Shown here piece after piece: positions 13,118-35,644 of a stretch of 35,644 bases of DNA (positions are counted from its first letter, which is position 1; every line of letters begins with the position of its first letter). A program made the position numbers and the translations under genes. This DNA is from Desulfurococcales archaeon (lineage in GTDB: Archaea > Thermoproteota > Thermoprotei_A > Sulfolobales > NBVN01). The DNA lies in NCBI GenBank assembly GCA_027083115.1, contig JALWQN010000153.1, positions 1 to 35,644 of the forward strand, given 5' to 3'. A model generated the notes under the pieces. That model searched no databases. It had not been told where the DNA came from and worked only from the letters and a program-made list of their open reading frames with translations.

Positions 13118-14156
13118 TTGAGTGAAGGCCTAAATTTTCTGGAAAAACTCGATGGTTTTGCAGGAATAGATAGAAGATGGATCCAAATTAAGGAAGCAGA
13201 AACTAGTCCTAACTATGGCAAGCATCCTGAAGAAAGAACCATAAATGAGCTCATGAAATTAGGCGTAATAAATCTCGATAAACCTCCTGGACCAACGAGT
13301 CATGAAGTAACTTCCTGGATTAAGAAAATGCTTGGTGTCGGGAAGGCCGGGCATGCAGGGACCCTAGAGCCGGCTTAGCCGGTGGGGATACCCTAAAACC
13401 ACGGGTGTGCTTCCCGTAGCCTTAGAGAACGCATCAAAAATGCTGAAGTACTTGACTCTATCAACAAAGGCTTACATTACAGTGATGCAGTTACATAAAA
13501 AAGTGGATAAGGGTAGGTTAATGGAGGTTATTAAGGAATTCACTGGCAGAATCTACCAGAAACCCCCAGTGAGGTCCTCAGTGAAGAGGGCCTTAAGGAC
13601 TAAGACGATCTATGAGCTTGAAGTACTTGAGATCAATTATCCTTGTGTTCTACTGAAAATTACCTGTGAGCACGGTACGTACGTAAGGAAGTTAATTCAC
13701 GATATTGGGGAAGTACTTGGTGTGGGAGCGCATATGAGGGAACTTCGTAGAGTGAGGACAGGTCCTTTTAAGGAAGACAAGAGTTTGGTTACGATGCATC
13801 AACTATCTGAGGCAGTATATATCTATAAAGAGCTGAATGACGAATCAACTCTTAAGAAATACATTATGCCGGGTGAATATATGGTTTCCCATTTGCCCAA
13901 GATCGTTGCCACTGATTCTGCAGTAGCATCAATAACTTATGGTGCTGACCTAGCTATACCTGGAGTTGTCGCGTTGCATGAGAAAATACGGAAGGGAGAT
14001 GATGTCGCTATTTTCACACTGAAGGGAGAGATAGTGGCTACGGGAATTGCTCAGAAACATACTGAAGAGGTTCTTGAAAGCAAGAAGGGAATAGCTGTAA
14101 AAACTAAAAGGGTAATTATGGAGAGAAAAATATATCCCAGGAAAACAAGGATTTAA
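13118..14156 (+). CDS. cbf5: tRNA/rRNA pseudouridine synthase Cbf5 (dyskerin homologue), join(13118..13368,13391..14156), interrupted by a BHB intron
   Basis: Exon 1 ...GVINLDKPPGPTSHEVTSWIKKMLGVGKAGHAGTL; exon 2 PKTTGVLPVALENASKMLKYL...; spliced length 1017 nt = 339 codons; the junction restores GTLDPKTTGVLP. Confidence 0.95.
13369..13390 (+). other. 22-nt BHB-type intron in cbf5 pre-mRNA (boundaries 13368-13389 or 13369-13390 give the same mRNA)
   Basis: Removal gives CTA GAC CCT AAA ACC (L D P K T). Foldable: AGGG(13357-60)/CCCU(13391-94), bulge AUA(13388-90), CCCUA(13362-66)/UGGGG(13383-87), bulge GAG(13367-69), CCGGC(13370-74)/GCCGG(13378-82), loop UUA. Confidence 0.9.
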
Positions 14157-33626: not shown

Positions 33627-33704
33627 GGGCCCGTCGCCCAGCCAGGATAGGGCGCCGGCCTTCTAAGCCGGTTGTCGCGGGTTCAAATCCCGCCGGGCCC
33701 GCCA
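33627..33704 (+). tRNA. tRNA-Arg(UCU), CCA encoded, no intron; likely integration target
   Basis: GGGCCCG...CGGGCCC acceptor, stem CCGGC/GCCGG with loop CTTCTAA, T-arm GCGGGTTCAAATCCCGC. Confidence 0.94.
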
Positions 33705-33733
33705 CATAAATTACTCCTTATATAAGTCATTAG
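33656..33733 (+). repeat. Left copy of 78-bp direct repeat (attL-like): tRNA-Arg from the anticodon stem through 29 nt past CCA
   Basis: 75/78 identical by eye to 35441..35518. Confidence 0.93.
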
Positions 33734-33985
33734 TCGTCTCTGTCTGATAAGTTTACTACATCAGAGAATTGAAAAACTATTGGAACCAGATATAGTTTGA
33801 AGTATAATAAATTAATGTTAGGGGTGGTGGTTCGAAAACCCCCGAAGGCGAATATTACATCTTAGGGGCGTCGTCCTTTATTAGCTGGTATTGTCTTATT
33901 AATTCTCCATTTACCTTTACGAGATTACAGCTTTTTGGGTGAGTGGAAGGGATAACTGTTATATGCGTGTGGCAGAAAATATTAT

Positions 33986-34573
33986 GTGGGATGGAGTGTG
34001 CGTGGTTTGGAGAGAACTATTAGAAGCATCTTTTTGGAGCTCGAGCACCTGGGTTATGAACCAGTGATTGTTGGCACTTATGCGTTGATAGTTCAGGGCT
34101 GGCTTCCACCTACATACTTGGATGAAACTAAAGATGTTGACATATATGTGGACGAGCCTATGGTTGTGTTTGATGAGAGGGTTGAGGAGAGAATGCTGGC
34201 CCTTGGTCTTAGTGTTGGGAGGTCGGAGTCAGGTGGCCTCTACATAGAGGCAGGCAAACCCGTAGAAATCGTATACCCTATTCATGACTTCTTCGTTCCA
34301 AGAACTTTACTTAAACATGTAGTAAGGGTTGAAAGGCTGAGAGTGATTGAGGGACACGCCGCACTCGTAGCTAAAGCCCTAGGCTCACCTATTGAGCACT
34401 TAGCTCCCACCATTAAGGCAATAGGTATTAAAGTTGATATTCAGAGTCTACGTAATCTTCTTAGGAGCATCGCCAGTGATGTAGAGCCTTCAAGGTATAT
34501 GGTTGCGAGAAGGCGAGTAGAGGCCTTCATCAATGAAATGTTTCCGGTAAAGAGGGAGGGTGATACAAAATGA
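33986..34573 (+). CDS. Putative minimal nucleotidyltransferase-fold protein (Pol-beta superfamily, AbiEii/DUF6036-like)
   Basis: GYEPVIVGTYALIVQGWLPPTYLDETKDVDIYVDEP: glycine-containing start followed by a DxD-type strand (DVDIYVD), with a later acidic strand VEIVYP. Confidence 0.6.
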   Translation: MGWSVRGLERTIRSIFLELEHLGYEPVIVGTYALIVQGWLPPTYLDETKDVDIYVDEPMVVFDERVEERMLALGLSVGRSESGGLYIEAGKPVEIVYPIHDFFVPRTLLKHVVRVERLRVIEGHAALVAKALGSPIEHLAPTIKAIGIKVDIQSLRNLLRSIASDVEPSRYMVARRRVEAFINEMFPVKREGDTK

Positions 34574-35178
34574 AGGTTGACCTCGGTGCCTTTGTGTCTG
34601 CCCTTAAAGGTTGGACGCTATGTATTAACGAAACTAGATGCGATTGCATGATATGTGTCCGCTTACCTGATTGGGCAGGGAATCTTGGTGAGCATGAGAA
34701 GGTTTATCTGGCCCTCTACATTACGTCCAAGCACCTACTCGACTATAGATTAACTGCCTCCATGCACATCTACTTGGTAAGGAACAAGGTCGCATTAAGG
34801 CCAGAAATATTGACAAAAGCCCTCAGAGATGCTAAAGTAGTTTCTAAAATCCCACGAGCCATAGAGGAGGAGAGCCCCTACGTATGGGAGGCAGTGCTCT
34901 ATAAGGGAATACTCTATGCGGAACAGATACTGAGCCTTGGCAAGCCTATCATAGTCAAGGTGGAGCCACCGAGGGATAAGCGTGCCCGTGAGAGACTAAG
35001 AGTGCTACTTGAGGGAAAGAGGGTAACCATCAAGGGCAGAACCTACCATGTTGGGGGGCTAACCAAAAAGCTCGGTGGTCAAAGAATAGCGCCCTGGGCA
35101 TATCTACTGCCCAGGAGGAATGTGCCAAAACTACTTAAGCAAGTGAAGTCAAGAGCACGGATCAACGTGGCAGGATGA
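34570..35178 (+). CDS. Hypothetical protein, overlapping the nucleotidyltransferase-like gene by ATGA
   Basis: 202-aa ORF with ATG start overlapping the upstream stop; CDCMICVRLPDW near the N-terminus; no family recognised. Confidence 0.72.
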   Translation: MKVDLGAFVSALKGWTLCINETRCDCMICVRLPDWAGNLGEHEKVYLALYITSKHLLDYRLTASMHIYLVRNKVALRPEILTKALRDAKVVSKIPRAIEEESPYVWEAVLYKGILYAEQILSLGKPIIVKVEPPRDKRARERLRVLLEGKRVTIKGRTYHVGGLTKKLGGQRIAPWAYLLPRRNVPKLLKQVKSRARINVAG

Positions 35179-35341
35179 GATACTATGTGAGAAGAAACCT
35201 TAGCATATACTTCTGAAACAATCGGAAAGCACTAAACGATAAACAGAGTTATTCTTGGCAAAAGCGTGCAAACTCCTATGCATTGGGAAATCTAAATATA
35301 GCACTGACACCATACGCTCAATCCAATTAGGAGGTATAATT

Positions 35342-35413
35342 ATGTATCCATCCCAAAACTCAAGCCTTTTCAGCTTCCTCATCATTTTTACTCTTTGTCT
35401 CCATTTAGATTAG
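35342..35413 (+). CDS. Possible small ORF (23 aa), hydrophobic peptide MYPSQNSSLFSFLIIFTLCLHLD
   Basis: AGGAGGT at 35329-35335, 6 nt before ATG; TATA-like ctaaatata about 30 nt further upstream. Confidence 0.35.
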   Translation: MYPSQNSSLFSFLIIFTLCLHLD

Positions 35414-35440
35414 AAGTAGATGCACTACTTTATGTGGTTT

Positions 35441-35518
35441 CGGCCTTCTAAGCCGGTTGTCGCGGGTTCAAATCCCGGCGGGCCTGCCACATAAATTACC
35501 CCTTATATAAGTCATTAG
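35441..35518 (+). repeat. Right copy of 78-bp direct repeat (attR-like): truncated tRNA-Arg 3' portion
   Basis: Same 78 bp as 33656..33733 with 3 substitutions; lacks the tRNA 5' third; T-stem and acceptor changes suggest decay. Confidence 0.93.
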
Positions 35519-35644
35519 CAAGACTATTGGTGAAAATTACTTCGGAAGCTAATTATTGGGTGACGTCTTTTAGTGCGTCATGAGGATAGCAGATTCTTTA
35601 GGATTTGCCCTTCCTTCATTACGAGCACTATATTATCCTTATTC

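Follow-up and report, generated by a model that had tools for sequence, protein, structure and literature searches.

The window, by which we mean the whole 35,644-nucleotide stretch of DNA analysed, carries close to its right end a short island bounded by two copies of the 3' part of a tRNA-Arg gene. The features of the island and its flanks are as follows.

33627..33704, + strand: intact tRNA-Arg with anticodon UCU (ARAGORN), the putative integration target, which would have been rebuilt by the left copy
33656..33733, + strand: attL, the left 78-nt copy, which runs from the anticodon stem to the tRNA 3' end and on through the 29-nt tail
33705..33733, + strand: 29-nt tail after the CCA, a conserved cassette left-end motif with the TATA-like CTTATATAAG
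33998..34573, + strand: ORF1, a DUF2204 nucleotidyltransferase (Pfam match with E = 5.2e-5, exceeding the gathering score; the start may be 33986 or 33998)
34570..35178, + strand: ORF2, a 202-aa orphan protein and proposed partner of ORF1, which it overlaps by 4 nt
35420..35440, + strand: right end of the cassette, the inverted repeat AAGTAG-ATGCA-CTACTT plus TTTATGTGG
35441..35518, + strand: attR, the right copy, a truncated tRNA-Arg(UCU) fragment with tail and three substitutions
35579..35644, - strand: C-terminal end of a chromosomal amidohydrolase-like gene, at the contig end (12/18 residues identical to the gene of G039)

The two direct repeats (33656-33733 and 35441-35518, 78 nt each) are 96% identical at a start-to-start distance of 1785, and the BLAST E value of about 1e-32 excludes a chance match. 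The repeat begins with the 5' strand of the anticodon stem, and the right copy is without the tRNA 5' half. Exactly three substitutions separate the copies (33693/35478 C>G, 33700/35485 C>T and 33715/35500 T>C); two of the changes in the right copy hit paired tRNA positions, in the T arm and the acceptor stem, as expected of a fragment which is no longer under selection. The DNA next to the two copies is unrelated, and no integrase gene was found between them (33656 to 35440) among the ORFs or with Pfam. The sequence-only reading, which had claimed 78-nt repeats at tRNA-Arg(UCU) with three substitutions, a spacing of 1785 and no integrase, therefore held in full on these points. Both boundaries are shown, with the caveat on the right one that the right copy lies 126 nt from the contig end at 35644. 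On the left, a DUF434/DUF5616 gene lies upstream of tRNA-Arg(UCU) in the window, in G001 and in G039; on the right, TTTATGTGG recurs inverted as CCACATAAA beyond the tRNA fragment, and the amidohydrolase-like gene of G039 sits 5.7 kb behind the same tRNA. A tRNA 3' direct repeat around foreign DNA with the tRNA left intact is what defines an archaeal tRNA-integrated element, and this is met. A tyrosine integrase gene of its own is not found in the island, which is therefore filed as an integrase-less derivative and not as an autonomous element.

The 1,785 bp of cargo (33656 to 35440) hold only the two overlapping genes on the + strand. The dN/dS values of ORF1 (0.20 and 0.11) and ORF2 (0.18-0.24) show that purifying selection acts on both. 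No family for ORF2 was found in Pfam, PHROGs, PADLOC or NCBIfam, and its relatives in three other genomes are 70-90% identical. Comparison with known structures returned a single weak match, of ORF1 to a designed fibre protein (E = 0.18), and nothing for ORF2, and the AlphaFold folds were of too low confidence for use (pLDDT 37 and 49). A viral origin of the cargo found no match in viral contigs or PHROGs, and PADLOC gave no match to a known defence system.

The cargo is absent from most of the family. None of the 30 same-family relatives sampled, some of them incomplete genomes, has the intact pair, and G003 of the same family has only an ORF2 remnant elsewhere in its genome. Relatives of ORF1 and ORF2 outside the family were found in G039, G032 and Hestiella acidicharens, and G039 carries ORF2 and the tail of ORF1 behind the orthologous tRNA-Arg(UCU). 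At the orthologous tRNA of G001, from the same genus, lies a different insert of 450 bp, an archaeal integrase gene broken by a frameshift (L049, G001:C19, 1937-2405; its Pfam match, E = 0.0023, falls short of the gathering score), with a tRNA-Arg(UCU) fragment as its closing boundary. The sequence-only reading had proposed a comparison with an empty site, but none with tRNA-Arg(UCU) and the amidohydrolase exactly joined was found among the relatives; the right-flank gene was of no use for this search because the amidohydrolase relatives of the family lie on contigs other than that of tRNA-Arg(UCU).

The main argument for mobility comes from Hestiella acidicharens, where three cassettes follow a tRNA-Arg(GCG) gene with tRNA-Arg(UCU)-type 3' fragments between them. 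The cassettes are, in order, a VapBC pair (PIN and AF2212-like), a UPF0175/DUF3368 pair and the ORF1/ORF2 pair of the window. The left 170 nt, the genes and the right end of the third cassette match the window, and the sole large difference is a 390-bp stretch found again elsewhere in the Hestiella locus. It is a repeat inserted into the Hestiella cassette and not a stretch deleted from the window. This MITE-like repeat of 190-390 bp has three copies in the locus (L017; 6866-7254, 250-440 and 13369-13591), one of them within the cassette. The DUF434/DUF5616 locus was not found in Hestiella. Two different tRNA-Arg genes thus carry one and the same short unit, which argues that it moved as a unit. 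The pair also lies in G032, inside a 9.2-kb element which runs from tRNA-Arg(CCG) to a closing tRNA-Arg fragment (L116, G032:C33, 6382-15702); its first gene is a Phage_integr_3 integrase, and it holds a VapBC pair in addition to the pair of the window. A second VapC-type gene lies beyond its closing fragment.

These observations bear on what the sequence-only reading had asked of the cargo. It had proposed a search of genomes for the cargo between other tRNA fragments, and such cases were found in Hestiella and G032. It had also named two outcomes as refuting integration. One, vertical inheritance of the cargo at this locus, failed, given the 0/30 count in the family and the presence of the pair behind different tRNA-Arg genes outside the family. 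The other was the same two copies with unrelated DNA between them; the opposite is seen in Hestiella, where the same unit with both ends lies at a different tRNA-Arg.

The wider occurrence of such fragments was surveyed in a sample of 154 tRNA genes from the family of the window and other families of the order, analysed as genome stretches. The genes were picked by similarity to tRNA-Arg, and other tRNAs are under-represented. Sense-strand 3' fragments were found behind 20 of the 154 tRNAs, compared with one hit in antisense and one upstream, and at 8/20 further loci. In this sample, rows of two or more fragments occur only at tRNA-Arg genes and run up to five fragments, and single fragments occur at tRNA-Gly, tRNA-Ser and tRNA-Leu. 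At 20 tRNA-Arg loci, 47 segments are bounded by tRNA-Arg 3' fragments; 42 of them carry toxin-antitoxin (TA)-type genes and three an integrase. Tandem rows, in which nearly all units lack an integrase, are thus shown. The segments are small (18/47 below 1.2 kb), many being single VapBC units of ~0.9 kb in one orientation, with the TA pair usually directed towards the tRNA. Pfam assigned, among 81 segment ORFs, 18 PIN, 16 AF2212-like, 6 UPF0175 and 4 DUF3368 domains, plus HicAB, MazE and DUF433/DUF5615. TA-type genes were found in 0/204 random control windows and in 5/83 windows behind tRNA-Arg genes without fragments. The TA seeds were taken partly from the rows themselves, yet all 17 segments from loci fetched after the sources of the seeds scored too. 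Cassette rows are present in the single-contig genomes G031 and G054, in the latter at tRNA-Arg(CCG) and tRNA-Arg(UCG), and pieces of such rows lie on contigs C25 and C93 of the genome of the window, G000. At L210 (G053:C47) an additional tRNA-Arg-like 3' fragment (13786-13835, 98% to tRNA-Arg(UCG)), read by ARAGORN as part of a 2.3-kb tRNA-Gln, makes the row longer than counted.

Natural alleles with and without cassettes are shown in G003, which has two versions of one tRNA-Arg(CCG) locus (L117 on C8 and L224 on C5), 94% identical over 2,956 bp. In the C5 allele a VapBC cassette directly follows the tRNA, while in the C8 allele 10.3 kb of other cassettes lie between the tRNA and the same VapBC cassette; the switch falls within the tRNA 3' half. 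Presumably the alleles belong to two strains in one metagenome bin. The two also differ upstream of the tRNA, where C5 has ~5 kb of extra DNA.

The neighbours in these rows also bear on the function of ORF1 and ORF2. They are clear TA pairs. ORF1 and ORF2 overlap by 4 nt and consist of one DUF2204 nucleotidyltransferase and a partner of no known family. By analogy with the neighbouring cassettes, we suggest a TA-like addiction or defence pair, in which one product would be toxic and the other would neutralise it; the label rests on analogy only because ORF2 is without a known family. Transcription of the pair away from the tRNA, contrary to most TA cassettes, is a point against the overall cassette reading given below.

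Most of the fragments that bound the cassettes start at or near the anticodon stem. The tail after the CCA, CCACATAAATACCCCCTATATAAG or a variant of it, accompanies different cargo in several genera, and the tail motif of the window is found behind tRNA-Arg genes and fragments in L017, G032 and G003, again with different cargo. The sequence-only reading had noted that the duplication unusually runs 29 nt past the CCA; the length held and the oddity did not, as the 29 nt are a conserved element-end motif. Since these 29 nt, common to both copies, form the left end of a cassette, the right copy (35441-35518) is most plausibly all that remains of another cassette, namely its left end; this is a likely inference. 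At the right ends, inverted repeats of three types were found (GTTTCCA/TGGAAAC, GTTGCAT/ATGCAAC and GTCCCA/TGGGAC), 14-18 nt before the stem; a repeat of at least 7 bp is present in 19/41 right ends and in 4% of controls. It is not attC-like by any test done. As it is also present where the cargo faces the opposite way, its role as a TA operator is left undecided. A TATA-like box was seen between this repeat and the tRNA fragment, for example in L167, L225, L236, L237 and on G000:C25 and C93.

Integrase genes follow tRNA-Arg directly at two sites of G032 (among them C33, 6544-7848), in G053 (C47, 336-1649) and in G016. A trans-acting integrase elsewhere in the genome of the window had been proposed by the sequence-only reading, and G000 does have three tyrosine integrases. 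They are unlikely to be trans helpers because they are linked to tRNA-Ala and tRNA-Val, and no integrase linked to tRNA-Arg was seen in this 89% complete assembly. Two of these integrase genes are on G000:C162 (L216/L217), where the 5' and 3' pieces of a tRNA-Val lie ~27 kb apart, likely marking an integrated virus or plasmid; on G000:C150 (L113) the integrase overlaps a tRNA-Ala(UGC) fragment. An excised circle was not observed and viral contigs contained no match to the circle junction of the cassette, which counts against the reading of a mobile cassette; a viral origin of the integrase likewise found no match in them.

Taken together, the evidence makes an integrated cassette of 1,785 bp the likely identity of the island (probability ~0.7). 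It would belong to a class of small elements which sit in tRNA-Arg 3' halves in this order of Thermoproteota and mostly carry one TA pair each; its mobility is inferred. The suggestion of a very small integrated element that lacks an integrase is supported and extended, and amended in that the lone mini-element belongs to a widespread class of TA cassettes at tRNA-Arg genes. From the boundaries and the integrase genes directly behind tRNA-Arg we infer site-specific recombination by a tyrosine integrase and, because almost no unit encodes one, its supply in trans; such movement is favoured and unproven. In the proposed mechanism, a tyrosine recombinase of the archaeal Phage_integr_3 class, supplied by a larger tRNA-Arg element, would recombine a circular cassette, at the tRNA 3' half which it carries, with a chromosomal tRNA-Arg gene, which would rebuild the tRNA at the left and push the fragment to the right. 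Repeated integration events would stack the cassettes. As the displaced copy in the window retains a cassette-type tail, an earlier cassette was probably present here and has since been lost.

Three other explanations were weighed. The island may be what is left of a single larger tRNA-Arg element with its own integrase, comparable to the one in G032, integrated here and reduced to the pair, and never mobile as a 1.8-kb unit. The G032 element with the pair inside it, the integrase remnant at the orthologous tRNA in G001 and the known loss of integrases after integration in archaea (PMC8371274) speak for it. Nevertheless, we regard it as unlikely: the short unit, both ends included, is found in Hestiella behind a different tRNA-Arg, therefore it had been shortened before it moved at least once; the repeats of the window enclose no integrase remnant, and most other cassettes of the class are just as short. 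Alternatively, RadA-dependent homologous recombination between tRNA-Arg 3' halves may spread cassettes without an integrase. The T arms and acceptor stems of tRNA-Arg are nearly identical, cassette arrays exist without integrases, and the UCU-type fragments behind the GCG tRNA of Hestiella mean that exchange across isoacceptors is possible. This too appears improbable, as the shared homology is just 45-78 nt and full-length relatives encode an integrase at the same sites; moreover, the starts at the anticodon stem in most fragments and the ends with conserved motifs suggest a site-specific enzyme.

Least probable, and already contradicted, is that the tRNA 3' end was simply duplicated in place or that the assembly is chimeric near the end of the contig. 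The contig end so close behind the right copy and the 29-nt tail common to both copies are compatible with it, but most of the family lacks this foreign cargo and the same junctions are found in Hestiella, an independent assembly.

Beyond the integrated-cassette reading, a bolder and less likely one is that the tRNA-Arg genes of the order are integron-like platforms. An archaeal tyrosine integrase acting in trans would there take up, keep and reshuffle standardised TA cassettes of ~0.9 kb, the joint between cassettes being the tRNA half plus the terminal inverted repeat. Tandem integration and integrase loss are documented in archaea (PMC8371274; PMC6563490), and in Sulfolobus islandicus, tRNA genes and vapBC pairs have been reported as mobile hot spots (PMC3718332). 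In the open-licence literature searched we found no description of TA cassette rows bounded by tRNA halves, and an earlier description elsewhere is possible. What appears to be new is the rows of TA cassettes at tRNA-Arg; tRNA-integrated elements, tandem integration and integrase loss were already known. Through such rows thermophilic archaea could accumulate their many TA pairs, and the presence of the rows in single-contig genomes makes the movement of archaeal VapBC loci testable.

Among known systems, the archaeal elements of SSV and pNOB8 type also use as target the 3' half of the tRNA, starting with the anticodon stem, and leave the intact tRNA on one side and the displaced fragment on the other; the full-length relatives of the cassettes (G032, G053) encode, directly behind tRNA-Arg, a Phage_integr_3 tyrosine integrase of the kind found in those elements. 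Unlike them, the cassette is 1.8 kb long (others ~0.9 kb), has one gene pair and no integrase, replication or virion genes, and occurs in rows. As for VapBC and nucleotidyltransferase (MNT/AbiEii-like) TA systems, ORF1 is a nucleotidyltransferase in a pair with a 4-nt overlap and the neighbouring cassettes are clear VapBC, UPF0175/DUF3368 or HicAB, whereas the familyless ORF2 places the pair outside the named TA families. Tycheposons and other tRNA-bounded islands are cargo elements moved by tyrosine recombinases, reduced forms included. They share the tRNA-bounded cargo but are bacterial and larger, with fitness cargo, and are not rows of single TA pairs.

With integrons and chromosomal superintegrons, which are reported in archaea too (PMC9668308), the rows share small, mostly one-function cassettes in one orientation, recombination-site joints and richness in TA genes. 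They differ in that the joint is the tRNA-Arg 3' half and not attC, and in that no dedicated attI is present. Membership by IntI plus attC is not met: an integrase is present in only 3/47 segments, and none of IntI type was found at the rows, although no separate IntI search was made. Cassette rows on tRNA genes thus appear to exist without attC or IntI. The CIMEs (cis-mobilizable elements) and the tandem accretion of streptococcal ICE/IME loci likewise combine att-flanked cargo that lacks an integrase with integrase-coding relatives, side by side or in tandem, at a single site. The CIMEs are bacterial and described as deletion derivatives of ICEs, whereas the cassettes are far smaller, mostly hold one TA pair and lie at archaeal tRNA-Arg, with mobilisation inferred. 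The definition of a CIME-like unit, att-flanked and integrase-less with a site and ends common to an integrase-coding relative, is met by the island, the relative being the G032 element with its similar tail.
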